Below are positions 2,052-64,000 of a DNA stretch of 64,000 nucleotides, piece after piece. The translations under genes and the position numbers were made by a program. The stretch is from Pseudoalteromonas sp. NC201 (GTDB lineage Bacteria; Pseudomonadota; Gammaproteobacteria; Enterobacterales; Alteromonadaceae). Below the pieces are notes generated by a model. The model was given only the letters and a program-made list of their open reading frames with translations, made no database searches and had not been told where the DNA came from. The stretch is from positions 754,486 through 818,485 of the forward strand of contig NZ_CP022523.1 of NCBI RefSeq assembly GCF_002850255.1. The letters run 5' to 3'. The first letter of the stretch is position 1, and the number at the start of each line of letters is the position of its first letter.

Positions 2052-2930
2052 ATGAGCGCAGGAAAAAAATTTCGTGAAGCATTAAAAGCCAATAAACCGC
2101 TTCAAATCGTCGGCACTATCAACGCATATAGCGCTATGATGGCAAAGAAAATCGGTCATCAAGCTATCTATCTTTCTGGTGGTGGCGTTGCTAATGCATC
2201 TTATGGTTTACCTGACTTAGGAATGACATCTCTAAATGATGTAATTGCAGATGTAAGTCGCATTACCTCGGCTTGTGATCTACCTTTAATGGTCGACATT
2301 GATACTGGATGGGGCGGCGCTTTCAATATCGCAAAAACCATCCGAGATATGGAAAAAGCAGGTGCCGCTGCGGTACATATGGAAGATCAAGTAGCGCAAA
2401 AGCGTTGTGGTCACCGTCCAAATAAAGAAATCGTGTCGACAGAAGAAATGGTTGACCGTATTAAAGCAGCAGTTGATGCGCGCACCGATCCTGACTTTTT
2501 CATTATGGCAAGAACAGATTCGTTTGCACAAGAAGGGCTAGAAGCGGCAATTGAACGTGCAAAAGCTTATGTTGCAGCAGGCGCTGATGGCATTTTTGCA
2601 GAAGCGGTACAAACTGAAGAACACTATCGCGCATTCAGCGAAGCACTTGATGTGCCCATCCTAGCGAATATCACTGAGTTTGGTAAGACAGAACTTTGGA
2701 ACAAAGCTGAGCTAGGTGAGTGGGGCGTAGATATGGTGCTATACCCATTGAGTGCGTTCAGAGCGATGAACAAAGCGGCGGAGCTGGTGTATCAGTCTAT
2801 TTTAGAAAATGGGGACCAGAAAGCGGTACTCGATACCATGCAAACCCGAATGGATTTGTATGATTACCTTGGCTATCACGATTATGAGCAAAAGCTCGAT
2901 GCATTATTCGCCGAAGGTAAAAATAAGTAA
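2052..2930 (+). CDS. prpB: 2-methylisocitrate lyase
   Basis: 292 aa, the usual PrpB length. It cleaves 2-methylisocitrate to pyruvate and succinate in the last step of the methylcitrate cycle. The isocitrate-lyase-superfamily signature KRCGH(R) with the catalytic Cys is at about residues 117-122. The Mg-binding residues follow the pattern DIDTGWGG and MEDQ. AGAGAG just before the start serves as ribosome site, and the gene begins 14 bases after the regulator. The C-terminal [17 protein letters not shown] matches PrpB rather than MceB-like carboxyvinyl mutases. Identification is very secure. Confidence 0.95.
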
Positions 2931-2938
2931 AAATTAAA

Positions 2939-2961
2939 GCTGTTGAGGGTTGCTCAGCAGC
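2939..2961 (+). promoter_or_regulatory. Intercistronic stem-loop prpB-prpC
   Basis: GCTGTTGAG and CTCAGCAGC pair around a 5-base loop (9 bp with one G-U) in the 77-base gap between prpB and prpC. No T-run follows. It probably tunes mRNA stability or relative expression rather than stopping transcription. Confidence 0.4.
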
Positions 2962-3007
2962 ACAAAATATCAATACCCAGCAGGTAAAAAATTCAGGAGA
3001 CAATAAT

Positions 3008-4129
3008 ATGGCTAAAGTACTAAGTGGCGCGGGCCTTCGTGGTCAAGTAGCAGGAAAAACAGCACTATCAACGGTAGGTAAGTCGGGCTCAGGTTTGACT
3101 TATCGTGGCTACGATGTAAAGGATCTAGCTGAAAATTGTCAGTTTGAAGAGGTGGCTCACCTTATCCTTAAAGGTAACTTACCAAATCAAGCTGAACTAG
3201 ACGCTTATAAAAGCGAGCTAAAAGCAATGCGCGGTTTGCCGCAGGCATTAAAAGAAGTATTAGAACGTATTCCTGCTGACGCACACCCAATGGACGTATT
3301 ACGTACGGGTTGTTCAATGCTTGGTAACCTTGAAGGTGAAGCAAGTTTTGATGAACAAGGTAAAGTAACCGATCGCATGCTAGCAAGTTTCCCAAGCATT
3401 ATTTGTTACTGGTATCGCTTTAGCCATGATGGCGTTCGTATCGATGTAGAGACGGATGACGACTCAATCGGTGCACACTTCTTACACTTATTGCACGGCG
3501 AAAAACCAAGTGAGCTACATGAGCGTGTGATGCACGTATCACTTATCCTTTATGCAGAGCACGAGTTTAACGCGTCGACCTTTACAGCTCGTGTTTGTGC
3601 CTCAACGCTTTCTGATATGCATTCATGTATTACTGGTGCAATTGGTTCTCTACGTGGTCCACTTCACGGTGGCGCAAACGAAGCGGCAATGGAAATGATT
3701 GAGCGCTTTGAATCTGCGGATCACGCAGAGCAAGAAATGATGGGTATGCTTGAGCGTAAAGAAAAGATCATGGGCTTTGGTCACGCTATCTATTCAGAAT
3801 GTGACCCTCGTAACGAAATCATCAAACGTTGGTCTGAAAAACTAGCGGCAGATGTGGGTGATACGGTACTTTACCCTGTATCTGTACGCTGTGAAGAAGT
3901 CATGTGGCGCGAGAAAAAACTATTCTGTAATGCTGATTTCTTCCATGCATCAGCTTATAACTTCATGAAGATCCCGACTAAATTGTTCACACCAATCTTT
4001 GTTATGTCACGCTTAACAGGTTGGGCTGCACACGTTATGGAGCAGCGCGCAGATAACCGTATCATTCGTCCATCGGCGGAATATACTGGCGAGGAGCTAC
4101 GCCCAGTTCCAGCCATATCTGAGCGTTAA
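3008..4129 (+). CDS. prpC: 2-methylcitrate synthase
   Basis: 373 aa type-II citrate-synthase fold. It condenses propionyl-CoA with oxaloacetate to 2-methylcitrate. Visible landmarks are LTYRGYDVKDLAE near the N-terminus, the active-site region RGPLHGGANEAAMEM (catalytic His), MGFGHAIYSECDPR (second His) and the C-terminal Arg-rich RIIRPSAEYTGEE. The short length and the location between prpB and acnD separate it from GltA. A clear ribosome site AGGAG stands 6 bases before the ATG. Confidence 0.95.
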   Translation: MAKVLSGAGLRGQVAGKTALSTVGKSGSGLTYRGYDVKDLAENCQFEEVAHLILKGNLPNQAELDAYKSELKAMRGLPQALKEVLERIPADAHPMDVLRTGCSMLGNLEGEASFDEQGKVTDRMLASFPSIICYWYRFSHDGVRIDVETDDDSIGAHFLHLLHGEKPSELHERVMHVSLILYAEHEFNASTFTARVCASTLSDMHSCITGAIGSLRGPLHGGANEAAMEMIERFESADHAEQEMMGMLERKEKIMGFGHAIYSECDPRNEIIKRWSEKLAADVGDTVLYPVSVRCEEVMWREKKLFCNADFFHASAYNFMKIPTKLFTPIFVMSRLTGWAAHVMEQRADNRIIRPSAEYTGEELRPVPAISER

Positions 4130-4203
4130 TCGAACACTGTTCGAATCTATTCTGGCGGTCGCCATGGCCGCCTGTTCTCCGTCACCGATTGTTGGAAGTT
4201 GTT

Positions 4204-6798
4204 ATGAATACTCAATTCCGTAAACGTTTACCTGATTCTGAGCTTTGCTATTACGATACAAAAGAAGCGGTAGAAGCCATCAAACCAGGTAGCTACGAGA
4301 CTTTACCTTATACCTCACGCGTCCTTGCTGAAAACTTAGTACGCCGCGCTGAGCCTGAAAAACTCAATGATTATCTTGAACAAATTATCGAGCGTCGTCG
4401 CGATTTGGACTTTCCGTGGTTTCCTGCTCGCGTGGTTTGCCATGATATTTTGGGTCAAACTGCGCTAGTCGACCTTGCGGGTTTGCGTGATGCTATCGCT
4501 GAAAAAGGCGGCGATCCGGCTAAAGTCAATCCAGTCGTACCGACTCAACTGATTGTGGATCACAGCTTGGCTGTAGAGCACGCCGGTTATGAAGAAGATG
4601 CATTTGAGAAAAACCGCGCGATTGAAGACCGTCGAAATGACGACCGTTTTCATTTTATCAACTGGACCAAAACGGCATTTAAAAACGTTGATGTGATCCC
4701 GCCAGGCAACGGTATTTTGCACCAAATCAATTTGGAAAAAATGTCGCCAGTTATTCAAGCGCGCGACGGTGTTGCCTTCCCTGACACGCTTGTTGGCACC
4801 GACAGCCACACGCCACACGTTGATGCACTCGGTGTTATTGCCGTTGGTGTGGGTGGCCTTGAAGCAGAAAGCGTGATGCTTGGCCGTGCTTCATACATGC
4901 GATTGCCGGATATTGTTGGGGTTGAAATCATTGGCAAACGTCAACCGGGGATCACCGCAACGGATATCGTACTGGCGATCACTGAGTTTTTGCGTAAAGA
5001 GCGCGTCGTTTCTAGCTACTTAGAATTCTTTGGTGAAGGTACGCAAGATCTTAATTTAGGTGACCGTGCGACAATTTCAAACATGACACCAGAGTATGGT
5101 GCAACCGCGGCCATGTTCTACATCGATGAACAAACCATTGATTATTTGAAGCTCACAGGCCGTGATGACGAGCAAATAAAGCTGGTGGAAAAATACGCTA
5201 AGCTGACAGGACTTTGGGCTGATTCTTTACAAAACGTACAGTACGAGCGTGTACTTAAGTTCGATTTGTCGACGGTGACGCGTAATATTGCAGGTCCTTC
5301 AAATCCGCATCGCCGCGTTGCAACTAACGACCTTGCTAATCAAGGTATCGTTAAAGAGATTGAAGCGCCAAAAGATGGTTTGATGCCAGATGGTGCCGTG
5401 ATCATCGCTGCTATCACCAGTTGCACTAATACCAGTAACCCACGTAACGTAGTTGCCGCAGGCTTACTGGCCCGTAATGCCAATAAATTAGGTCTTGCTC
5501 GTAAGCCTTGGGTGAAAACGTCTTTTGCACCGGGGTCAAAAGCAGTACGTTCTTATATGGAAGAGGCAAAGCTTCTACCTGAGCTTGAGCAGCTCGGTTT
5601 TGGTGTTGTTGCCTTTGCTTGTACGACTTGTAATGGCATGAGTGGTGCACTTGATCCGAAAATTCAACAAGAAGTGATTGACCGTGATTTATATTCAACG
5701 GCAGTGTTATCGGGTAACCGTAACTTTGACGGTCGAATTCACCCTTACGCAAAACAAGCCTTCTTAGCTTCACCACCGTTGGTTGTGGCTTATGCAATTG
5801 CAGGCACCGTGCGCTTTGATATTGAAAATGGTGTCTTAGGTCGTGACCAAGAGGGCAATCCGGTCACGCTTAAAGATATCTGGCCAAGCGATGAAGAAAT
5901 CGATGCGGTGATCAAAGAAAGCGTAAAACCAGAGCAGTTCCGCGCCGTTTATGAGCCAATGTTTGACCTCACGGTAGACTATGGTGAAGACAACGACCCA
6001 CTTTATCAGTGGCGTCCAACGAGTACCTATATTCGTCGTCCTCCTTATTGGGAAGGGGCACTCGCGAGCGAGCGTACCATGAAAGGCATGCGTCCATTAG
6101 CGATTTTAGGCGACAACATCACGACGGATCATTTATCGCCATCGAATGCGATTTTGGCAAGCAGTGCGGCGGGTGAGTATCTGGCTAAAATGGGCTTACC
6201 AGAGGAAGATTTCAACTCATACGCGACACATCGAGGTGATCACTTAACGGCGCAGCGTGCGACATTCGCCAACCCCAAACTGTTAAACGAAATGGTGGTA
6301 GAAAACGGTGAAGTAGTACAAGGTTCACTGGCGCGTGTTGAGCCTGAAGGCAAAGTCACCAGAATGTGGGAAGCCATCGAAACCTATATGGAGCGTAAAC
6401 AGCCGCTGATCATCGTTGCAGGCGCAGATTACGGCCAAGGCTCGTCTCGTGACTGGGCTGCAAAAGGTGTGCGTTTGGCTGGAGTTGAAGTTATCGCAGC
6501 AGAAGGGTTTGAGCGTATTCACCGTACTAACTTAATCGGTATGGGTGTACTACCGCTTGAGTTTAAAGCGGGCACTACCCGTAAAACGCTTGAACTTGAT
6601 GGTACAGAAACCTATGACGTTGAGGGGGAACCGGCACCAGGTGCTACATTAACTCTCGTAATTAACCGTCAAAGTGGTGAGCGTGTAGAGGTGCCTGTGA
6701 CTTGTCGATTAGATACCTTTGAAGAAGTATCTATTTACTCTGCAGGTGGCGTGTTACAACGCTTTGCTCAAGACTTCCTCGAAGCGGAAGGCGTATAA
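4204..6798 (+). CDS. acnD: Fe/S-dependent 2-methylcitrate dehydratase, AcnD type
   Basis: 864 aa aconitase-superfamily protein. I start it at the ATG at 4204, with GGAAG 5 bases upstream, rather than at the TTG at 4189. The [4Fe-4S] ligands are in ITSCTNTSNP and FACTTCNGMSGA. GADYGQGSSRDWAAKGVRLAGVE is the C-terminal swivel-domain signature. AcnD dehydrates 2-methylcitrate to trans-2-methylaconitate, which then needs the isomerase PrpF. The prpF gene follows with only 2 bases between, which fixes this as AcnD rather than AcnA. It replaces PrpD in this organism. A GC-rich inverted repeat (GGCGG...CCGCC, 4153-4172) sits in the gap after prpC. Confidence 0.95.
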   Translation: MNTQFRKRLPDSELCYYDTKEAVEAIKPGSYETLPYTSRVLAENLVRRAEPEKLNDYLEQIIERRRDLDFPWFPARVVCHDILGQTALVDLAGLRDAIAEKGGDPAKVNPVVPTQLIVDHSLAVEHAGYEEDAFEKNRAIEDRRNDDRFHFINWTKTAFKNVDVIPPGNGILHQINLEKMSPVIQARDGVAFPDTLVGTDSHTPHVDALGVIAVGVGGLEAESVMLGRASYMRLPDIVGVEIIGKRQPGITATDIVLAITEFLRKERVVSSYLEFFGEGTQDLNLGDRATISNMTPEYGATAAMFYIDEQTIDYLKLTGRDDEQIKLVEKYAKLTGLWADSLQNVQYERVLKFDLSTVTRNIAGPSNPHRRVATNDLANQGIVKEIEAPKDGLMPDGAVIIAAITSCTNTSNPRNVVAAGLLARNANKLGLARKPWVKTSFAPGSKAVRSYMEEAKLLPELEQLGFGVVAFACTTCNGMSGALDPKIQQEVIDRDLYSTAVLSGNRNFDGRIHPYAKQAFLASPPLVVAYAIAGTVRFDIENGVLGRDQEGNPVTLKDIWPSDEEIDAVIKESVKPEQFRAVYEPMFDLTVDYGEDNDPLYQWRPTSTYIRRPPYWEGALASERTMKGMRPLAILGDNITTDHLSPSNAILASSAAGEYLAKMGLPEEDFNSYATHRGDHLTAQRATFANPKLLNEMVVENGEVVQGSLARVEPEGKVTRMWEAIETYMERKQPLIIVAGADYGQGSSRDWAAKGVRLAGVEVIAAEGFERIHRTNLIGMGVLPLEFKAGTTRKTLELDGTETYDVEGEPAPGATLTLVINRQSGERVEVPVTCRLDTFEEVSIYSAGGVLQRFAQDFLEAEGV

Positions 6799-6800
6799 CC

Positions 6801-7976
6801 ATGAGTCAATTTAAGCCGCAAATTAAAATTCCCGCCACTTATATGCGTGGCGGCACCTCTAAAGGGGTGTTCTTTAATTTAACAGATTTACCCGAGTACG
6901 CGCAGCAACCGGGTGAAGCGCGAGATAACTTGCTGCTACGTGTGATTGGCAGCCCAGATCCCTATGGTAAACATACCGATGGCATGGGCGGTGCAACTTC
7001 CAGTACCAGCAAAACCGTGATCTTAAGTAAAAGCGACAAAGCCGACCATGACGTGGACTACTTATTTGGTCAGGTTGCTATCGACAAACCATTTATTGAT
7101 TGGAGCGGAAACTGTGGCAATTTAACGGCTGCGGTGGGGGCATTTGCAATCAGCAATGGCTTAGTCGATGCGAATAAAGTGCCAGAGAATGGTGTTGCTG
7201 TCGTTAAAATCTGGCAGGCGAATATTAGCAAAACCATAGTAGCGCATGTTCCAATCAGCAATGGAGAAGTGCAAGAGACGGGCGACTTTGAACTGGATGG
7301 CGTAACTTTCCCAGCAGCAGAAGTGGTGGTTGAGTTTATGGATCCAAGCGACCCAGATGTTGATATGTTTCCGTCGGGCAATCTCGTCGATACGTTAACT
7401 GTGCCTGATGAAGGCACCTTTGAAGTGACCATGATAAGTGCCGGGATCCCAACGCTTTTCTTCCGTGCTTCCGATTTAGGTTATGAAGGTACAGAGTTAC
7501 AAGAAGCAATTAATGGAGACCCAGCTGCACTAGAGCGATTTGAAAAGTTCCGTGCTTATGGCGCAGTTAAAATGGGTTTAATAGGTCATATTGACGAAGC
7601 GAAAGTTCGCCAACATACCCCAAAAATTGCCTTCGTTGCACCTGCTAAATCTTATGCTGCGTCGAGCGGTAAAGCGGTGGCAGCCAATACCATCGACTTA
7701 AACGTTCGCGCCTTATCTATGGGTAAGTTGCACCATGCGATGATGGGAACTGCCGCTGTGGCGATAGCAACCGCGGCGGCAATTCCTGGCACCCTAGTTA
7801 ACGAAGCCGCTGGTGGTGGTGATCTTAACTCCGTGACCTTTGGACATCCGTCAGGCACCTTAAAGGTTGGCGCTGAAGCACTGCAAGAGTCTGGTCGTTG
7901 GCAAGCTAAAAAAGCCGTCATGAGCCGCAGCGCTCGCGTGCTAATGGAAGGCCGAGTTCGCGTCCCAGAGGCGTAG
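6801..7976 (+). CDS. prpF: 2-methylaconitate cis-trans isomerase
   Basis: 391 aa PrpF family. It isomerises the trans-2-methylaconitate made by AcnD to the cis isomer for hydration by aconitase. Family signatures are MRGGTSKGVFF at the N-terminus, DGMGGATSSTSKT, DWSGNCGNLTAAVGAFAI (catalytic Cys region) and FGHPSGTL near the C-terminus. It starts 2 bases after acnD and is the last gene before a hairpin terminator. Presence of both acnD and prpF completes a PrpD-independent methylcitrate cycle. Confidence 0.95.
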   Translation: MSQFKPQIKIPATYMRGGTSKGVFFNLTDLPEYAQQPGEARDNLLLRVIGSPDPYGKHTDGMGGATSSTSKTVILSKSDKADHDVDYLFGQVAIDKPFIDWSGNCGNLTAAVGAFAISNGLVDANKVPENGVAVVKIWQANISKTIVAHVPISNGEVQETGDFELDGVTFPAAEVVVEFMDPSDPDVDMFPSGNLVDTLTVPDEGTFEVTMISAGIPTLFFRASDLGYEGTELQEAINGDPAALERFEKFRAYGAVKMGLIGHIDEAKVRQHTPKIAFVAPAKSYAASSGKAVAANTIDLNVRALSMGKLHHAMMGTAAVAIATAAAIPGTLVNEAAGGGDLNSVTFGHPSGTLKVGAEALQESGRWQAKKAVMSRSARVLMEGRVRVPEA

Positions 7977-30719: not shown

Positions 30720-31751
30720 TCATGATTGCGCCTCACTTTGTGTATATTGGGCTTTATAAGGTTCATTTCTTTGTAGCAATATCCACATTAAGCGAGCCAA
30801 TCGGTGGGCCGTGGCCACCACCGCTTTATTTTTACCGCGACGTTCTACCAATGCGTTGATCCATTTGTTTAAATCATCCTGCTTTTTGTGCGCATGATTG
30901 ACCACTGTACGGGCACCATGAATGAGTTGTTTTCTTAGATAACGATCACCTCGTTTGGTGATCCCTCCCATCTTATTGGTTTCACCCGAAGCATATTGAC
31001 GTGGTGTGATCCCAAGCCACACAGCCAACTCCTTTTTATTAGAAAATGCTTGCCCTTTATCTATTGTGGCACTCAATGCCGATGCGTTGATAATCCCAAT
31101 TCCGGGGATGGATTGGATAATTTGAGCAGCTTGGCTCTGTTCATTAAACTGCTTAAATTGTGCCTCTACATTTTTAATATTGGCGTCTAACTTTTGCATT
31201 TCTTCATAAACGTCTCTGAGGAGTAGATTTAAAGCTCCATGTAAATTACGGTTGAGCAGATCAGCAATGGTTGCACGAAAAGACTTTAAGCTCTTTTTGA
31301 TGACGATGCCAAATTCAAGTAACAAACCACATGTTTGGTTGATGCAGGCGGTTCGATTATGTATGAGCCGCTCCCGATAGCGATGTAGTGCTAGGATTGC
31401 TTGTTGATGCTCTGTTTTTACAGGAACAAAGCGAATGTTAGGTCGAAGGCTCGCTTCATAAATCGCCATACAATCATTTTTATCGTTTTTATTGCCACGG
31501 ACAAAAGGGGTAACATGTTGCGCAGGGATAAGCTGAACTTGGTGCCCAGCTTGTAAGCAGTACCGCCCCCAATAATGAGACGTTGAGCATGATTCCATAA
31601 CAACATTACAAGCAGGTAATTGGGTCAATGTTTGCAAGAGCTTTGCTCTATCTAACCTTCTGGAAAAACATTTATTACCTTGCTTATCAAACGATAAAAG
31701 TTGGAATACATTTTTTGCTAGATCAATTGAAAGCGTGCTAACGTTATTCAT
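30720..31751 (-). CDS. IS110-family (IS1111 group) transposase
   Basis: 343 aa from the ATG at 31751, chosen for AGGAGA 8 bases upstream. The N-terminal DEDD RuvC-like domain shows SIDLAKNVFQLLSFD (first Asp), VVMESCSTSHYWGR (Glu) and VRGNKNDKNDCMAIYEA (Asp pair). The C-terminal Tnp_20 domain has IIQSIPGIGIINASALSA, WLGITPRQYASGETNKMGGITKRGDRYLRKQLIHGAR with the catalytic Ser. Full length and intact, so potentially active. This family recombines through an RNA-guided mechanism and leaves little or no target duplication. An imperfect 12-base inverted repeat (31752-31763 with 31812-31823) flanks the 5' leader. Confidence 0.92.
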   Translation of the reverse strand: MNNVSTLSIDLAKNVFQLLSFDKQGNKCFSRRLDRAKLLQTLTQLPACNVVMESCSTSHYWGRYCLQAGHQVQLIPAQHVTPFVRGNKNDKNDCMAIYEASLRPNIRFVPVKTEHQQAILALHRYRERLIHNRTACINQTCGLLLEFGIVIKKSLKSFRATIADLLNRNLHGALNLLLRDVYEEMQKLDANIKNVEAQFKQFNEQSQAAQIIQSIPGIGIINASALSATIDKGQAFSNKKELAVWLGITPRQYASGETNKMGGITKRGDRYLRKQLIHGARTVVNHAHKKQDDLNKWINALVERRGKNKAVVATAHRLARLMWILLQRNEPYKAQYTQSEAQS

Positions 31752-31921
31752 GATGGACTCTCCTAATAACTGTGTTTGCAACTATCAGTTTGGCGCATTG
31801 ACGCCGATTTGGGAGCGTCCATCTCATCACCCACCACATTAATTTTATGCGGAGCAAGCATACAAGATGAGACTAAGTGCTTTTATGTCTCTCTAAAATA
31901 GTGTCATTTTTCAGAGGGAGG

Positions 31922-55773: not shown

Positions 55774-56202
55774 ATGGAACAAGTTTATAACTTTGCGGAT
55801 GAGGTGCAATTAGAGTCCTTAAGGCAGCTGATTGTTGAGAAGATTAATCAAAACGGACTGTCCGAGCAGCAAGTTACAGACAGTGCTTACATGAGTGATA
55901 GAAGTCTTCGCAATTATAAGACGGAAGGCTACTTAGCCAGTTTAGCGCCACTCTCGTCATCGACGGTAAGTAAGCTAAAGAATCTATTGACTGCGCTTAA
56001 TATTGAGCCTGAAGAAGCGCTGGAATACCACCAAAAGCGAATAGAAAATCAACAAAACAACCACCACTCAGACCCTACAAATCAAAATGGCCAGCAAAGC
56101 AATGCTCAGTTTCAAGGGTGTACCTTTAACGGCGGGGCGAATGCACCAAATGTTATCACTGGTAATAGGGATATTACGCTTAATTTTGGTGCTAAAGATT
56201 AA
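55774..56202 (+). CDS. HTH-like protein with C-terminal amyloid-type motif (system gene 1)
   Basis: 142 aa from the ATG at 55774, which has AAGGAG 6 bases upstream; GTG (55717) and ATG (55750) upstream lack support. Residues 10-85 look like a helix-turn-helix domain (ESLRQLIVEKINQNGLSEQQVTDSAYMSDRSLRNY...). Residues 90-115 are an Asn/Gln/His-rich linker. The C-terminus (residues 126-139) has NVITGNRDITLNFG. The next gene's N-terminus has the closely similar AVIQGNRDVQVNNYF. Such paired short beta-prone motifs, one at the end of a sensor and one at the start of its partner, are the hallmark of bacterial amyloid-signalling pairs. Role as DNA binder or adaptor is inferred. Confidence 0.65.
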   Translation: MEQVYNFADEVQLESLRQLIVEKINQNGLSEQQVTDSAYMSDRSLRNYKTEGYLASLAPLSSSTVSKLKNLLTALNIEPEEALEYHQKRIENQQNNHHSDPTNQNGQQSNAQFQGCTFNGGANAPNVITGNRDITLNFGAKD

Positions 56203-56345
56203 AGGTAATCTTAAATTCTGATAAGGGGTGGCTTAACCCTGAAAATGTAAGCTAGTTAGAAGCTTGTATCTCTATAACGAAGTGCTCGTTTTTAGAAGCT
56301 ATTAAGGTTTAATTACTTCTTTTTTATATTTAAAAGTGATTTTAT

Positions 56346-58547
56346 ATGAGTGCGGATCCAAAGGAAGCGGAAGCTGGTTCAAGCATTGGCATCGAAACCA
56401 ATGCATATGAGAATGATGTTCCTCAGCAACTGAGCCAGTTTGATAGTAGTACGTTTGAAGAGGCCGTGATCCAAGGGAACAGAGATGTTCAGGTCAATAA
56501 CTATTTTTCAAACGCTGATAAGAAACCACTGAAGTATGAAGCACTTCAGTTAAGAACGTTTCCAAAAATTGCGAGTAATGAGGTCATTTTAGATGACATC
56601 AAGTTAGCCGAACTTAACAACTTCCTCGTTTGTCACAATTGGCTGATTATTGGAAAAAATAACGAGAATGCCTTTTATCTCTCAGAGGCTATCGCTGCTG
56701 CTTTACAGCACACCGACATATCATCTTACTACATACGTCACAATTCATGTCGAATGACTGAGTATTTAGAAGCAAGATTTCCTTACGTAGAAAGTCAACA
56801 CGCTTATGTTATTAGGCAACCAATAGAAGACCTAGAAAGTTTCGAGCGCTTTATCGAAACCCGTGAAAATCTAAATGCACTGACGTCTAAACTAAAAGCA
56901 CGTAAGGCAACGCTGCTTATGGTATTGGATAGTAAAGGCGATAGTGACTGTCCTAGAAGGATCCAGGAATACCTGCGTTTCAACTCTGTAAGTTCTATGC
57001 TTGGTTATTGGCAGCCTGCAGTTCACTTTACACATGACCCATTACCTGTGGCAGCACTAGATAACGACGACTGGTTGGACTGTTTAGTTATTACACTAAC
57101 TTGTTGGTTTAACAATATGCCACTGGTGTTGTTTCAAAATGCAATTGCTAAGGCATTTGACCATAAATTAAAACAAGCTAAAGAAATAGGAGAAGGAGTC
57201 GAAGCGTTAACTCATGCTTATGCTCGTTGGCAGCAAGATCCTGATGCGTTTTTAAAATTAGCTGGGCTTGAGCTCACATCACCGTCGGGCTTAGGTATTT
57301 GTTGTATCAGGCTAAGTTCGATTAAGCAGGCAAGCGTATATCGAGAAAAGTTGCTTACAAACAATCCATTCCAACTAGCTGTACTCTCGCCAATTATTGA
57401 GGAAGTCATTTTTGATCAGGATATAACAAATGAACTCATTGACATAGATGCACTTTTTTCAGACCTCGCCTACTTCTACTTAAAGCTTTCTGAAGTCGGG
57501 GTAATTACTATTGACAGTGACTACCTATTAAAATTATTTGAACGTTATCGTCAGTGTCCAAATTCAAAAATAATTCATTTTATCTCATTTGTTAGGGCGC
57601 TCTCTTATCAAGATAGATTCAAAATAGCCATCGATGAATTTATTTATCAACTACTAGGGCAAGTGGAAAAGAAAGAGAAAGATTTAATATCTATTTCAGA
57701 CTTAGAAATTCATATTGACAACTGGGTGCCAGTATTTAAATCAACCTATGAAAATAAGCTTAAAGAGATGGTGTGTGATTTCAAAAATCACCTCTATTTT
57801 TTGTTTAATACTCTAGCCTATTCAATTGAATTTGAAAGTGAGTCTGAAGTTTTGTCATTAGAGTATATATTTTCTAAAAGCTATGAGCTTGGGTTGGATA
57901 AGAGTAAGAAATGTCCTAGCTTTGCGCTGCTTCGCTACTATTTTTCAGGGTATTTATATAGCGACTCCTTTCACTTATTAAAAATACTAAAAAGTATACC
58001 TTCCGATAGTGAGAAGTGTGTTTTAACTTTAATGATTGTGAGACTTTTTGTTTTTAGTCTTATGCATCGTGTGTTAGAGGGAAATAACCAAGTTGATGAT
58101 AAGGCTACCTCCTACTTGATTACGTTAATGTTTGAAGAGGGGGCGGAAGAGTTAATTTACCAATTGCTCGCGATGCCAAGTTTGAGCGAAAGTCTAAAGA
58201 AGAGAAACATCACAGCATTTTTAACCACATCAATTTATATAAAGCAAACGCTGCTCCAAGCGCAATATATCACCGATGAAAGCGAATATGAGCATTACGA
58301 CATGATGCTTACGGAGTTAAATGAAAAATTCAAACGATTGAATCAATTGTTTGCCATTGCTTGCACCAGAAAACAGTACGAGCAAATTAAAGCAGATTTA
58401 AGAATTCAGCGAGATAAGGCGGTAGAGCAGTACAGAAATTGTAGATCAGATAAAGAGTTGAGGATGCTACTAAAGCTAAAAAAAGGCGTGTTAAGCGAAG
58501 CTATTAAACAATTTAAAAAACCTAGAAGAGAATCCTACCATGCATGA
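56346..58547 (+). CDS. Large protein with N-terminal amyloid-type motif and degenerate NTPase domain (system gene 2)
   Basis: 733 aa. Residues 1-39 are acidic and disordered. Residues 40-54 hold AVIQGNRDVQVNNYF, matching the C-terminus of gene 1. Residues 95-200 have a STAND/P-loop-like layout: a hydrophobic strand LIIG followed by KNNENA, where a Walker A loop should carry GK[ST], and ATLLMVLDSKGD as a Walker B-like strand. Key nucleotide-binding residues are missing, so it is probably inactive. The remaining 500 residues are helical, repeat-like, and end in a basic tail. No signal peptide. I recognise no named family. The start lacks a good ribosome site; the stop overlaps gene 3 by 8 bases. 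Confidence 0.6.
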   Translation: MSADPKEAEAGSSIGIETNAYENDVPQQLSQFDSSTFEEAVIQGNRDVQVNNYFSNADKKPLKYEALQLRTFPKIASNEVILDDIKLAELNNFLVCHNWLIIGKNNENAFYLSEAIAAALQHTDISSYYIRHNSCRMTEYLEARFPYVESQHAYVIRQPIEDLESFERFIETRENLNALTSKLKARKATLLMVLDSKGDSDCPRRIQEYLRFNSVSSMLGYWQPAVHFTHDPLPVAALDNDDWLDCLVITLTCWFNNMPLVLFQNAIAKAFDHKLKQAKEIGEGVEALTHAYARWQQDPDAFLKLAGLELTSPSGLGICCIRLSSIKQASVYREKLLTNNPFQLAVLSPIIEEVIFDQDITNELIDIDALFSDLAYFYLKLSEVGVITIDSDYLLKLFERYRQCPNSKIIHFISFVRALSYQDRFKIAIDEFIYQLLGQVEKKEKDLISISDLEIHIDNWVPVFKSTYENKLKEMVCDFKNHLYFLFNTLAYSIEFESESEVLSLEYIFSKSYELGLDKSKKCPSFALLRYYFSGYLYSDSFHLLKILKSIPSDSEKCVLTLMIVRLFVFSLMHRVLEGNNQVDDKATSYLITLMFEEGAEELIYQLLAMPSLSESLKKRNITAFLTTSIYIKQTLLQAQYITDESEYEHYDMMLTELNEKFKRLNQLFAIACTRKQYEQIKADLRIQRDKAVEQYRNCRSDKELRMLLKLKKGVLSEAIKQFKKPRRESYHA

Positions 58548-60675
58548 AAGCATCTCTAATTTGAGCAACTTAATCAGAAAAGTCGATACTAACTTTCACA
58601 ATCCGAGAGTTCATGGAGAAGGATTTGTTGTCACTTGGAATAAGAAAACCAACCAAATCGTAACCAAGCAAGGTTTGCTATCTGATTTATTTAATAAGAA
58701 ACATTATGAATATTTCTTTGTTAAATCTCATACAAAACCAATCGTCATTAGCAAAATTCCATTTGAATGGCATGAAGGTGCAAGTGAGATTGCACTAGAG
58801 TTTTACGCTACCTTTCAGCTTAAAATTACAGATCAAACTGAAGCACATAAGTTAGTCGAAATCTTGAGTATGTCAGGCACGCCGGAAAAAGGATTATTTA
58901 ATTTAATAGATAAGCACCTGCATCACTGCATGTCGAAAATGTATAAGAAATGCTTGGACTCACAAAATAGCAACTTATTGGATGAGTTTTATCAGCAAGA
59001 GCTACAGCGTGGAGAAAGCAGTGAATTAAACACTTCGGTGTGCGAGCAAATGCAGCAAGAATTAAAAGGAATGGATTTTAATATTGGCTTTACGTTGCGT
59101 AATGCACCAGAGCGATATGCCGAATTTAAATATAGTACCAAGATAAAAGAAACGGGCTTAGAAGTAACGTCCGAATGTCAAATGACATTGAATAACTATC
59201 AAGCCTATCGCAAGTCTGAAATTAGCGATATCGAGGGGGTGGTAGCACACATGAAGGCGGGTATTGAGAGAGCAATCCGTCAGCATATTTTGGGCAAATC
59301 TGAAATGGATCTGCTGAGCAACTTCAAAACGGCAACGAGTCAAGACGTCTCTATCTCCGATCAGGTTAAAAATAGTGTTAAGCAACAAGCTACTGCGATT
59401 GGTTATGAACTTAATTCATTTCATACATTACCAAACATTGCTCCGCTGAGGTTATTAAATGGGTTGATGCTCACGTTTGATAAAGAAGATGGCGCATTTA
59501 AAACGGGGATGTTTGGTAGCCGTGTACGGTTAAATATTCGCATGGAAGTTAAGGCGAAAGAAGGAGAGTTTGAGAAATACCGTCACTTATTTGCAAGTAG
59601 TGAAAACGACAATCAGATTGATTTGTTAGCAATAACGCAAGCGCAAATTCTCGACAGAATAAAAGTATTAGTACACGACATTTGCAAAGAAGTGATGTTG
59701 AATGACAAGTTTAATCATTACAAAGCATTAAGTCAGTTTGAAGAATTAATCCGGCCTCAACTTGAAGATGAAATTGGCAAACGATTAAGTGAACAACATG
59801 GCTTGGTGGTAAGTATTAAGTCACTTATGGCAGTTGAATCTGAAGATGCCATGAGGCTTGAAGAGCTAAGAGGTAAAAAAATACCAATCCAATTTAAGCA
59901 TTTTTTTGGTGGACAAGACGGGATTGGTGCCGAGTATTCATTCAGTGGTGCATTTGAAGTGCTCGGTCTAGTCGTCAGTGACGCCGGTGGTGAACATAGT
60001 TGGGAAACGTTTGAAAAATGGGATTTTGGTTACCGAATTGATTCTCCTGAGCGTCATACCAACACCGCCCTTAAAGGGAATGACGATAGAGTCTGTAAAA
60101 AATTGGCGATTGAGAATGAACTAGATGATATAAAACAGGAAGTTATTAGGCTTTTCAAGGCATCAACATTACTTATCCCTTCCATTACGCTTTGGGTGAA
60201 TAAACGCGAGTATAACGCAAAGTTACAAGATGAATTGCTCAGTGAGGTATCGGCTCTGTTGAGGCGCAGCCGAGGAATGGATCTACTGATTGAAAGACTA
60301 GAAATTAAAGACGAAAGCCTGATCCAAGCGCAGCTTGATAGTCGAGATCGTAAGCTCAAATCAATTGCCGATGTCGATAGTATGCGTTTAGAGCAGCGTT
60401 TAGTTGATTTAAAACAAAGCAAAGACGAAAAGCAAAAGCTTGCGGACGAAGTTACAGAAAGAAGATTGAGTTTCCTGCGCGACAGCGATGATTTTGAGGA
60501 CTTACTAGACGAAAAAGAGCGTATCGAAAATGATTACCGTCATTTAAATACTAAAGAGTCGACCATAGAAGAGCTACTGCCAGCCCCTAACAGCCATGCC
60601 TCGAGCGATATCGAAGAATTAGCTGATGTACTTACTAAATCCAATAACCAGTGGGAAACGAACGATGAAAAGTAG
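58540..60675 (+). CDS. Multi-module SPFH/Band-7-like protein (system gene 3)
   Basis: 711 aa, no signal peptide or transmembrane helix. Four successive modules end in similar motifs: about 80-190 (GMDFNIGFTL), 195-300 (IGYELNSFHTL), 308-432 (HGLVVSIKSLMAVE) and 447-590 (RGMDLLIERLEIKDE). Each has a beta-rich half and a long helix, as in SPFH/stomatin/flotillin domains. The first 70 residues (GEGFVVTWNKKTNQIVTKQGLL) resemble the Band-7 entry strand. The tail (595-680) is a charged coiled coil. SPFH proteins build ring-like scaffolds at membranes. It overlaps both neighbours (8 bases upstream, 11 downstream), so expression is coupled. Tandem modules in one chain are unusual. Confidence 0.6.
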   Translation: MHESISNLSNLIRKVDTNFHNPRVHGEGFVVTWNKKTNQIVTKQGLLSDLFNKKHYEYFFVKSHTKPIVISKIPFEWHEGASEIALEFYATFQLKITDQTEAHKLVEILSMSGTPEKGLFNLIDKHLHHCMSKMYKKCLDSQNSNLLDEFYQQELQRGESSELNTSVCEQMQQELKGMDFNIGFTLRNAPERYAEFKYSTKIKETGLEVTSECQMTLNNYQAYRKSEISDIEGVVAHMKAGIERAIRQHILGKSEMDLLSNFKTATSQDVSISDQVKNSVKQQATAIGYELNSFHTLPNIAPLRLLNGLMLTFDKEDGAFKTGMFGSRVRLNIRMEVKAKEGEFEKYRHLFASSENDNQIDLLAITQAQILDRIKVLVHDICKEVMLNDKFNHYKALSQFEELIRPQLEDEIGKRLSEQHGLVVSIKSLMAVESEDAMRLEELRGKKIPIQFKHFFGGQDGIGAEYSFSGAFEVLGLVVSDAGGEHSWETFEKWDFGYRIDSPERHTNTALKGNDDRVCKKLAIENELDDIKQEVIRLFKASTLLIPSITLWVNKREYNAKLQDELLSEVSALLRRSRGMDLLIERLEIKDESLIQAQLDSRDRKLKSIADVDSMRLEQRLVDLKQSKDEKQKLADEVTERRLSFLRDSDDFEDLLDEKERIENDYRHLNTKESTIEELLPAPNSHASSDIEELADVLTKSNNQWETNDEK

Positions 60676-61303
60676 AAAAAACCTTGTTGCTGCTTCAATC
60701 ATGACAGCTTTGCTATCCGGGTGTGCAATGACTGACGACACTAAAACTCGAGCTGAGGGAGCATCGACAGGTGCACTCATTGGTGGTGCGCTTGGTTTGG
60801 TATTAGGTGACAATAAGCAAGCCGCTATGATTGGTGCATTGATTGGTGCTGTTGCCGGTGATCTTTATGCCAAGAGTGTGGTTAAGAAGAAGCAGGATTA
60901 CGCTAATACTGAGTTATATATGCAAGATGTGATTAAAGGGGCACAAGAGAAACTTATCGCAGCAAAAAATGAAAGAGAAAAAATTCATTTGGAAATAGAA
61001 GGTTATACCGCGCAGTTAGAAAGCATTGAGGCAGAGTCTCAAAAACGCAGTGCTGAGTATAGTAGCTTAGAAACGCAAAAAGATAGTCTGTCTAAAGCGG
61101 TTTCCAAGTCAGCTAAGTTAGTCGAGATATTGACTGAAGAAATTCAGTACCAAAAGGACGTGCTGGCACAAGAAAGAGAAACCGTTTCTGTGCAATTAGC
61201 CTCACATAGTGAAACGGTTATTCAACAACTTCTTGCTGAAAAGAACGAGCTAGAAGTCATGCAAGCCCAGCTAGCTTCATTAGATAGACGGAAATTATAT
61301 TAA
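60665..61303 (+). CDS. Glycine-zipper coiled-coil lipoprotein (system gene 4)
   Basis: 212 aa from the ATG at 60665 (GGGAAACG just upstream), overlapping gene 3 by 11 bases. Lipobox LLSGC gives Cys20; the following Ala predicts outer-membrane sorting. Residues 32-66 are a glycine zipper (GASTGALIGGALGLVLG, AAMIGALIGAVAG), as in oligomeric outer-membrane lipoproteins and pore-like assemblies. From 76 to the end is a coiled coil rich in Glu, Lys, Gln. I recognise no named family. Its stop codon ends one base into the next start (61303). Confidence 0.7.
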   Translation: MKSRKNLVAASIMTALLSGCAMTDDTKTRAEGASTGALIGGALGLVLGDNKQAAMIGALIGAVAGDLYAKSVVKKKQDYANTELYMQDVIKGAQEKLIAAKNEREKIHLEIEGYTAQLESIEAESQKRSAEYSSLETQKDSLSKAVSKSAKLVEILTEEIQYQKDVLAQERETVSVQLASHSETVIQQLLAEKNELEVMQAQLASLDRRKLY

Positions 61304-61791
61304 TGCTGAAGCGGGTTATATATTGCTTGTTTTTGTCTTTGCTAGCAGGTTGTAAGACGACAGGTGATCCGACAACTGGTGGGTTGTATGGATGGAGCGA
61401 AGAAAAAGCAAAGCAACGACAGGCACAGCTAAACCGAAGAGTAGTGGATATCGAAGCTCAAATGAATGCGATTGAGGAAGAAAATCAAGAGCTTGAAAGT
61501 GACAAGGTACAACTAACACAGTTGATAGTAATACAAAGTGAGAAGTTAAACGCTTTAATTGCAAGCCATGATGCGTTGCTGGATAAGATAGAAACATACA
61601 AAGGTCTTGAACATATTAATCAGACAAAAATTAGCCAGCTGAAAACACGTTACCCATGGCTCGGCCTGAGTCGAGAGGAGGTATTGAGACAATTTCAGGA
61701 AGCGGCAAGCGAATCACGACAACAGCAAATGCTAAACCAGCTAGAGAGTGAGCTTGAATCACTAGCACAAGAAATAGATATGATACTTTGA
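61303..61791 (+). CDS. Coiled-coil lipoprotein (system gene 5)
   Basis: 162 aa. Lipobox LLAGC gives Cys17, followed by Lys, predicting the outer membrane. Residues 35-100 and 125-160 form coiled coils (QLNRRVVDIEAQMNAIEEENQELESDKVQL). No enzymatic motif. Start overlaps the previous gene by one base. Together with gene 4 it would give two long periplasmic coiled-coil rods anchored to the outer membrane. Confidence 0.65.
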   Translation: MLKRVIYCLFLSLLAGCKTTGDPTTGGLYGWSEEKAKQRQAQLNRRVVDIEAQMNAIEEENQELESDKVQLTQLIVIQSEKLNALIASHDALLDKIETYKGLEHINQTKISQLKTRYPWLGLSREEVLRQFQEAASESRQQQMLNQLESELESLAQEIDMIL

Positions 61792-61800
61792 GTAATGTAG

Positions 61801-62787
61801 ATGTCGATTAAACCAATAAAAGCACAATATTATTGCAACAATATAGAACACTGCAGCAATGCTCGGGCGCATAAGTTATTTACTAAATCATATGCCAACA
61901 AGTGTGGTGTTTGTGCTCAGCCATTACTGTTTGCGCGTTGGCATTTTTCGTTTGTCACTTCCTTTAGTTGGGTACTTTGTTTATCAACATTGGCAGCGCT
62001 ATCTTATCCATATTTTTTTCCTAAAGAATATGAAAATATTACTTTTTCTGGTGTGAAGACTGAAGTTCAAGAGTCTAATGCCGTTGTGGAAGTTACTATT
62101 CATCGAACAACAGGCATTGATTTAGTACAACAGATAGAGTTGATAACAGAAGATGGTACTGCAAAAGCAGCTGAGGACTATCGAGCCCTTGATATTGCTT
62201 TACAGTTCCAGCCTGGTGAAGTGCAAAAATCAATAAATATTCCTATTATTCCTGACTCCGATGTCTATGAAAACAATGAAATGTTTTACATTAAGCTGAA
62301 AAATGTGAAAGGGCAGCCGTCACATATCGTGATGATTGTCGAAGCTGGAGTAAACAAAGACTTAGTGGAAAAAAGCAGCCTTTTGGTAAGTAACCTTTCA
62401 GCTCTTGCAGCGGACCTTTCGAATGATTTGAAACAGCTTGAGATCCTTGGTAACTATCTGTCAACCAAAGAAAATCCAAAGGCGAACTTGGTCAAGAATT
62501 ACCGTAATACTCAAGATAATATTCAAAGAGCGAGAGAAAAATACATCGTTCTTTTTAATGAAGCTTTAGATTTGGACCCTAATGTTTTGAGAAATGCATT
62601 GGATTCCCACCTTGAAGCGCTGAAAAAACAACAGTTTCATACTCAATATGAAGCAACAACTGTGATGAAAGCTCAGTTACTTGACTACTTGAGTTCCAGA
62701 GTTTCTAACTCGCCTAAGTGGCTCGAGGAGTTAGGTGAGGTAGTAAAGCTTGAAGTGAAAGCAAATAACAATGGTAGTGTTATCTAA
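61801..62787 (+). CDS. Zinc-ribbon, transmembrane, Calx-beta protein (system gene 6)
   Basis: 328 aa. Residues 12-38 form a treble-clef/zinc-ribbon (Cys12, Cys18, Cys35, Cys38). One transmembrane helix spans about 47-72. Residues 82-175 match a Calx-beta domain: VQESNAVVEVTIHRTTG, TEDGTAKAAEDYRAL and the calcium-loop end VYENNEMFYIKL. Residues 185-328 are helical and coiled. The natural topology is zinc ribbon in the cytoplasm, Calx-beta and helices in the periplasm, so it can join the SPFH/HTH side to the lipoproteins. It starts 9 bases after gene 5 and ends the operon. Confidence 0.7.
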   Translation: MSIKPIKAQYYCNNIEHCSNARAHKLFTKSYANKCGVCAQPLLFARWHFSFVTSFSWVLCLSTLAALSYPYFFPKEYENITFSGVKTEVQESNAVVEVTIHRTTGIDLVQQIELITEDGTAKAAEDYRALDIALQFQPGEVQKSINIPIIPDSDVYENNEMFYIKLKNVKGQPSHIVMIVEAGVNKDLVEKSSLLVSNLSALAADLSNDLKQLEILGNYLSTKENPKANLVKNYRNTQDNIQRAREKYIVLFNEALDLDPNVLRNALDSHLEALKKQQFHTQYEATTVMKAQLLDYLSSRVSNSPKWLEELGEVVKLEVKANNNGSVI

Positions 62788-63354: not shown

Positions 63355-64000
63355 ATGTCTTTTAAAATAGAAGCATGTAATTTAAATAATATTGATGTCG
63401 CAGTTAAAACGTTGAAAGAAAACTATGTGGAAAACTTTCCAGCTATCAGAGTTACTAAAGATAAAATCTTAGGTAAAGGTATTTCTCTATACCTACTTAG
63501 TGATATAAGCCAAGTTCCACATAATCCAATAGCGACTTTTGGACTGAGCAGTGCGTATGACGATGAAGATGTTTGGAAAGAAGTAAGGGCATCATTAAGC
63601 GATGACTTTGACCCTAAAAAGGATGCAGTTGTAGGCCAGCTTAGTATATCGAGTAAAGATGTCGCAATTACCAGAGTCGTTTATGGTCTGTTATTAGATA
63701 AAGCACAACAGATGGGTTATGAGCGGTTGTTTTTTATCCTGAGAGGAAATGTTGATTTTTATAAAAAGTTATTTAACGCTATACTGATTAAAAGTGATTG
63801 CAACTATGATATTGGGGTTGATAGAAAAATATCTGCTCTAGTTGTTGAAACGAAAGAGATAAAGCAAAGGGGCCTTCGCTTCCTAAATCGAAACTTATCA
63901 TCTTGCTTTAATAAGAGTGATAGTCTAATTAAAAGGGAAATTATGAATAAATCTCATTGGGATGAATATAGTAGTGCATTTGACTCTATTATTACTCCAC
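63355..64000 (+). CDS. GNAT-like protein fused in frame to a possible methyltransferase, cut by window end
   Basis: ATG at 63355 with AGAGG 8 bases upstream; open to the window end (215 codons). Residues 1-150 follow a GNAT pattern: NPIATFGLSS, GQLSISSKDVAITRVVYGLLLDKAQQMGYERLFFILRGNVDFYKKLF. At codon 197 (63943) an internal Met begins MNKSHWDEYSSAFDSIITP, which resembles the start of class-I methyltransferases and is in the same frame. It may be one bifunctional protein or a read-through pair. Family calls are tentative. Confidence 0.5.
   Translation, partial: MSFKIEACNLNNIDVAVKTLKENYVENFPAIRVTKDKILGKGISLYLLSDISQVPHNPIATFGLSSAYDDEDVWKEVRASLSDDFDPKKDAVVGQLSISSKDVAITRVVYGLLLDKAQQMGYERLFFILRGNVDFYKKLFNAILIKSDCNYDIGVDRKISALVVETKEIKQRGLRFLNRNLSSCFNKSDSLIKREIMNKSHWDEYSSAFDSIITP

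Follow-up and report, generated by a model that had tools for sequence, protein, structure and literature searches.

Amyloid signalosomes of the BASS type, as PMC7889193, PMC8086366 and PMC12261475 describe them, consist of adjacent genes in which a small effector and the N-terminus of an NLR receptor carry a tag. In iSTAND and iSTAND2 (Kaur et al. 2020, 2021; PMC7159879, PMC8195603) and in BREX BrxB (PMC12839542) a large protein has eroded nucleotide-binding motifs, and inactive STAND modules are proposed (PMC8195603) to act as nucleic-acid receptors. Here we describe a six-gene cassette (g1 to g6) of Pseudoalteromonas sp. NC201, which lies toward the end of a 64-kb stretch of contig NZ_CP022523.1 (the window). 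The cassette is real, rare and conserved. In our judgement there is an even chance that it represents an envelope-coupled amyloid-type conflict system, probably serving in defence.

The six open reading frames (ORFs) are co-directional and together span 7 kb. Genes g2 to g5 overlap by 8, 11 and 1 bases, g5 and g6 are separated by 9 bases, and g1 is situated 143 bases upstream; the ORF list of the window bears out this arrangement as given in the first-pass annotation, the start of g4 being placed at 60665 by its lipobox. Only the glycine zipper of g4 and the Calx-beta domain of g6 exceed their Pfam cut-offs, g1, g2, g3 and g5 having no domain over cut-off, and searches of the six proteins against PADLOC, NCBIfam and PHROGs found nothing that names any of these four. 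Rfam and tRNA searches found none, and a scan for promoters and terminators was uninformative.

We counted ten loci for this cassette: the window, three further Pseudoalteromonas strains (L005, L020 and L021), P. aurantia S3788 (L010), Caballeronia sp. M1242 (L004) and four genomes of another class which contain g2- and g3-like genes (L009, L016, L017 and L018). All six genes are intact in the three additional strains. The dN/dS values against L021 are 0.04–0.14 for every gene (0.07 for g1), L005 and L020 showing too few changes for this comparison. Among named records the closest is Pseudoalteromonas piscicida 2515, which is 99.6% identical over 12.5 kb and carries the genes on a 1.3-Mb replicon. 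P. aurantia possesses the six genes in unchanged order. On the Caballeronia replicon the tagged protein, g2 and g3 share one strand, the opposite strand carries g6-g5-g4, the two groups being arranged tail to tail, and one flank is occupied by a Shedu SduA gene [PADLOC 4.2e-166]. The other flank carries a gene for a 615-residue GHKL-like ATPase, named from its sequence (L004 14367–16214, minus strand), which has no PADLOC match at E 0.01. In L009, L016 and L017 a divergent block specifies a transmembrane (TM) protein and two lipoproteins, the first of the glycine-zipper type. At L018 (genome G613) a tagged TIR protein is accompanied by g2 and g3 alone; the second lipoprotein was not found anywhere in the G613 genome, which is 74% complete. 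The envelope module, that is, a TM protein plus two lipoproteins, is thus present at nine of the ten loci. Genes for S41 peptidases adjoin the cassette in two of the other-class genomes (L009 4625–6073, plus strand; L017 801–2171, minus strand), the latter with a Pfam Peptidase_S41 match of 9e-23 and the former named by sequence, and they are possibly part of that version of the cassette.

The genes form a linked unit which occurs again, with changed orientation, in distant genomes. The circumstance which would have spoken against the first-pass proposal of one unit, unlinked genes elsewhere, was looked for and not encountered, linkage being kept in both P. aurantia and Caballeronia. The zinc-ribbon/Calx-beta protein cannot be upheld as a constant part: three of the other-class genomes have an unrelated TM protein in its place, and G613 has no envelope module.

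A neighbouring protein with a terminal tag was found at nine of the ten loci, and its domain varies: XRE-like helix-turn-helix (HTH) in the window, HetE-N/BELL-like in Caballeronia and TIR in three genomes. The TIR_2 match is 3.8e-30 in L016 and 8e-6, just under cut-off, in L018; the Caballeronia protein matches HetE-N at 0.0021, which is also under cut-off. In the window this position is held by g1 (55774..56202, plus strand; 142 residues), with an XRE-like HTH domain at approximately residues 10–98 followed by the tag. A structure model compared with XRE/lambda-repressor-like HTH folds gave middling scores, the Pfam scan of g1 detected no HTH family at E up to 1, and a BELL, TIR or CHAT domain is absent from this protein. 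Gp1 of the window is probably a DNA-binding HTH protein. That relatives have a TIR or a HetE-N/BELL-like domain where g1 stands makes a conflict function, which the first-pass annotation had inferred, much likelier.

The g1 tag (56095..56184, plus strand; residues 108–137, core VITGNRDITLN) aligns locally with the g2 tag (56424..56498, plus strand; residues 27–51, core VIQGNRDVQVN) with a score of 46. We compiled a six-by-six table of such effector-receptor scores for the window, P. aurantia, Caballeronia, G505, G597 and G613. The cognate pairing, with a sum of 250, is the top of the 720 possible assignments, as it is of the 24 assignments in each of three subsets having one member per lineage, and the cognate receptor scores best for four of the six effectors. 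Composition-keeping shuffles reached the cognate score 5 times in 5000 for the window, 35 times for G613 and never for Caballeronia or G597. Against a background of other ORF N-termini, from which effectors were excluded, none of 172 reached it for the window, Caballeronia and G597, nor any of 169 for G613. Because the tags differ across lineages yet mostly match within them, these comparisons suggest cognate recognition. The amyloid-motif pair of the first-pass annotation behaves like a matched pair; that the tags are amyloid we infer from their likeness to published motifs.

Gene g2 (56346..58547, plus strand) occupies the receptor position and specifies a 733-residue protein with the N-terminal tag, a region resembling an eroded P-loop and a long part predicted to be helical. 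A motif scan showed Walker A to be absent in all seven g2 proteins, two of which have an isolated GK[ST] elsewhere. The site where the motif would be expected presumably corresponds to WLIIGKNNENAFYLSEAI (56640..56693, plus strand), a place conserved in the alignment. In the alignment a hydrophobic strand is succeeded by a polar turn and, further on, by a second such strand with Asp at its end, all before the long helical part; this pattern suggests an eroded P-loop domain. No Pfam match was obtained for g2 from the window, Caballeronia, G511, G505 and G613, and hence no NB-ARC or NACHT domain; a PDB search with the g2 profile gave nothing credible. A relation of g2 to STAND proteins is putative. 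Profile comparisons of g2 gave 1.8e-5 within the other class, and 0.0013 and 0.023 beyond it. We equate the g2 proteins on the grounds of their position, their tag and the missing Walker A, not of proven common descent. Between the window and P. aurantia g2 shows 35% identity and g3 69%, making g2 the fastest-changing large component.

Gene g3 (58540..60675, plus strand) encodes a 711-residue protein with a coiled-coil C-terminus and no predicted membrane segment. It is homologous across lineages [profile E 1.8e-31 for Pseudoalteromonas–Caballeronia, 3.9e-6 and 4.7e-6 to the other class, 5e-27 from the other class to G613], though direct comparison of G613 with Pseudoalteromonas and Caballeronia fails (0.3 and 0.014). 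When compared with genuine SPFH domains the family profile matched at four successive places [E 0.0032, 0.019, 0.031 and 0.23; probability at most 10%], which cover much the same SPFH stretch. The comparison set comprised 14 of 22 rows; left out were two rows close to a contig end, a partial and a long one, and four under cut-off, two of which come from g3 itself. None of 60 column-shuffled profiles attained the top score, the reversed profile reached 16.0 versus 32.8, and the g2 profile, used as a control, scored 12.2 (E 0.87). Taken as a whole, the family has an internal repeat (8.5e-4), which is weaker in the other class (0.0048) and does not show in the window-side proteins alone (0.57). 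The Pfam model Band_7 came closest in L016 [7e-5, 23.4 of the 23.6 bits required], followed by L018 [7e-4, 20.1 bits] and L017 [0.023, 15.2 bits], with no match in the window and Caballeronia proteins. A fold model from a two-row alignment (mean pLDDT 34.8) was not used for any search, and PDB sequence searches with P0003 and with the g3 profile yielded nothing credible. Based upon these profile relations g3 likely consists of tandem SPFH-like domains.

The envelope module of the window begins with g4 (60665..61303, plus strand), a glycine-zipper lipoprotein with a lipobox and a coiled coil [Pfam Gly-zipper_Omp, 5e-7], the profiles of which match at 3.3e-17 or better between lineages. The product of g5 (61303..61791, plus strand) is a coiled-coil lipoprotein in which the lipobox is followed by a TTGDPxxGGLxGW signature. 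The GGL signature is present in the P. aurantia and Caballeronia copies and appears as DPRQGGLLG in L016 and L017; the second lipoprotein of L009 departs from this pattern. Because the profile values of the second lipoprotein to the other class (1.6e-7 and 5.1e-7) do not rise above lipoprotein-1-versus-2 controls (6.3e-7 and 7.3e-7), they were set aside and its equivalence leans on the signature. Gp6 (gene at 61801..62787, plus strand) has zinc-ribbon-like cysteines near its N-terminus, one TM segment, a Calx-beta domain [8.3e-21] and a helical C-terminus. It matches its Caballeronia counterpart at a profile E of 1.1e-26 and has no profile match to the kinase-like TM protein of the other class, the head of which is weakly kinase-like in L016 [Pkinase, E 0.017] and without a Pfam kinase match in L009.

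The cassette is sporadic. Searches with g3 gave matches in 3 of 119 close relatives, counting the own genome, in 1 of 325 genomes of the order, namely the own genome, in 2 of 398 genomes of the phylum (own genome and G511) and in 4 of 48 genomes from G511's class. The same four genomes came up when the phylum was sampled a second time, around G505 (4 of 398). Among 369 genomes of the own class there were two, one being the own genome and the other a match rejected as coiled-coil noise (G480, 8.2e-4 over 71 residues). Gene g1 was found in 3 of 99 genomes searched, the same three as g3. As the one scan of genome contigs gave a single relative, the census counts only as a sample. Neither phage records, searched with g3, nor viral contigs, searched with the g3 profile and g1, contained a relative. 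In plasmid records g3 matches only P. piscicida 2515 and Caballeronia, g2 only P. piscicida, and the Caballeronia effector only itself; the g3 proteins of L016 and L018 found no match there, and a third plasmid match of the Caballeronia g6, in Anabaena, proved to be a partial Calx-beta match. From approximately 55.6 kb on, the block is 99.0% identical to the window in L020 and 95.4% in L021, the preceding flank being 86.8% and 85.4% identical; the simple reading is that the block was exchanged recently.

We favour a conflict system over housekeeping because of the exchange of effectors, the sporadic presence and the Shedu neighbour, the first being the strongest evidence. As a possible mechanism, an envelope disturbance, such as phage adsorption or DNA entry, would be sensed by the lipoproteins and by the TM protein through its periplasmic part, and the cytoplasmic head of the TM protein may relay the signal to the SPFH-like scaffold g3. 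This scaffold would gather g2, and the clustered g2 tags would nucleate a cross-beta fibre templating the tag of the effector. Crowding would thereby switch on the effectors: in the relatives, TIR enzymes or a domain of the HetE-N/BELL-like kind that perhaps acts on membranes, and in the window a probable DNA-binding HTH protein with an output that may be transcriptional. The direction of the signal, the fibres, the scaffold and the trigger are all inferred. In its most specific form, to which we give a low probability, the proposal is of an envelope-spanning amyloid signalosome without a nucleotide switch. Two outer-membrane lipoproteins and an inner-membrane linker would trigger a tandem-SPFH platform which nucleates a prion-like fibre, and in Pseudoalteromonas the target of the fibre would be a DNA-binding protein, the cross-beta signal switching transcription or DNA occupancy instead of killing directly.

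Several observations weigh against an envelope-coupled amyloid-type conflict system. Nothing in the data names phage as the trigger; PADLOC has no convincing match to the six window proteins, and among the immediate neighbours of the window copy none was identified as a known defence gene. The HTH and SPFH calls, being below library cut-offs, are weak points: no g3 protein exceeds the Band_7 cut-off, and single g3 stretches attain only 12.7 and 12.9 bits. For g2, homology between the window or Pseudoalteromonas proteins and Caballeronia is not detectable (profile E 0.85, no BLASTP match), and the best cross-lineage values given above are near the 0.0048 of a g2–g3 control. With regard to the tags, a non-cognate receptor scores higher for the P. 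aurantia and G505 effectors. Significance is lacking for the P. aurantia pair, the cognate score of which is reached by 1181 of 5000 shuffles and 17 of 172 ORF N-termini, and is marginal for the G505 pair (262 of 5000 and 2 of 172); the tag ends were picked by eye once the likeness was seen, which favours pairing somewhat. No effector was found for G511 in L009, L056 or L057, an ORF in L056 (best score 40) having been rejected as implausible, and the 19 kb read at the G613 locus contain no envelope module. The even chance given above takes account of the SPFH stretches below threshold, the control values of g2 and the weak pairing of tags at two loci.

SPFH proteins and glycine-zipper lipoproteins have housekeeping roles, and one might therefore regard the cassette as an operon for envelope stress or membrane organisation, with g1 as an ordinary XRE-type regulator and the likeness of the tags due to shared N/G/Q-rich low-complexity sequence. 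The regulator-like appearance of g1, its distance of 143 bases from the rest and the weakness of two of the six tag pairs would agree with this. We consider it unlikely, as the cassette is rare and sporadic, the tagged protein is TIR or HetE-N-like in other lineages, and shuffles which keep the composition so seldom reach the window pair and never those of Caballeronia and G597.

Rather improbable, in our view, is a cytoplasmic sensor in which an eroded STAND-like g2 recognises nucleic acid or protein of an invader and the signal runs outward, the TM protein, lipoproteins and SPFH-like protein supplying a membrane output or protection. The role proposed for inactive STAND modules in PMC8195603 is in keeping with it, as are the rapid change of g2, which would be expected of a recogniser, and the presence in G613 of TIR, g2 and g3 in the absence of the envelope module. 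On the other hand the STAND fold of g2 is itself conjectural, an output is already supplied by the tagged effectors, and the exchange of the cytoplasmic head of the TM protein (zinc ribbon or kinase-like) fits a relay. That g1–g3 and g4–g6 are two independent modules, adjacent by chance or through a shared island, is very improbable: the opposite strands in Caballeronia and three other-class genomes and the solitary first module of G613 would suit it, but adjacency is kept at nine of ten loci despite the change of orientation and despite a replacement of the TM protein family that left both lipoproteins in place.

In both Pseudoalteromonas species the cassette is followed by genes for a GNAT-methyltransferase fusion and a LuxR-like regulator (window 63355–63999 and L019 2841–4836; L010 14646–16656), the fusion occurring in 5 of 60 genus members, all three cassette holders included, if short methyltransferase-region matches are set aside. 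The slot downstream also contains a gene for 981 residues, perhaps restriction-related (L019 5236–8181, plus strand), the stretch of which is absent from the alignments to L005, L020 and L021 and which has a weak PADLOC match [mad8, 0.0019]. Genes for a lipoprotein-like protein of approximately 1370 residues and a TraT-like lipoprotein (L019 8524–13558; L010 16666–21697) are found downstream in both species, so the cassette appears to lie in a conserved place. Elsewhere the window carries an IS110-like transposase gene (30720–31781, minus strand) and an apparent 2-methylcitrate operon (prpB, prpC, acnD, prpF; 2052–7976, plus strand). Except for mad8, the names in this paragraph were given from sequence.

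Should the cassette prove to be an envelope-coupled conflict system, prion-like coupling of effectors would not be tied to nucleotide-switch NLR receptors, could be wired to the envelope and would extend beyond the filamentous bacteria where it was described. SPFH-like proteins would gain a place in bacterial conflict systems, and one chassis would accept exchangeable effectors (TIR, HetE-N/BELL-like, HTH). Two questions would become testable: by what means an attack on the envelope could be sensed, and whether transcription can be under the control of amyloid signals. Confirmation would broaden what is known of immune signalling in bacteria.

Like the BASS signalosomes, the cassette has neighbouring genes for a small effector that ends in a short tag and for a large receptor that bears such a tag at its N-terminus; its relatives include effectors with TIR and BELL-like domains, and the tags vary between loci and mostly match within them. 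Unlike them, its receptor lacks Walker A and any NLR domain match, a tandem SPFH-like partner and a lipoprotein envelope module are added, and in Pseudoalteromonas an HTH stands in place of the effector domain. With iSTAND, iSTAND2 and BrxB it shares, in g2, a large protein with eroded nucleotide-binding motifs within a multi-gene conflict-type system; unlike those systems, it has no MoxR, vWA or BREX partner among the six window genes and the three flanking genes scanned. SPFH-like and lipoprotein partners go unmentioned in PMC8195603 and PMC12839542, and PMC7159879 names them nowhere but in its reference list. To the SPFH/Band 7 proteins (HflK/HflC, QmcA, stomatin, flotillin) g3 is likely related, the family profile matching genuine SPFH domains at four successive places with a probability of at most 10%, but g3 would hold several copies, has no predicted membrane segment and no Band_7 over cut-off. 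The TIR domains of L016 and L018 match ThsB-type PADLOC models of Thoeris [3.1e-10 and 6.7e-5], the best model for that of L016 being PDC-S66 [2.1e-23] and not ThsB; in contrast to Thoeris, the TIR protein of the cassette is encoded beside g2 and g3 and bears at its N-terminus a tag matching that of g2. A full-text literature search, the coverage of which excludes the founding BASS paper and most subscription papers, found no description of this gene set. Although the NLR NTPase of a signalosome is missing, as is a signalosome effector domain in the window, neighbouring genes do carry matching tags at most loci, and with its paired tags and exchanged effectors the cassette is best filed as a variant of the amyloid-coupled conflict systems.

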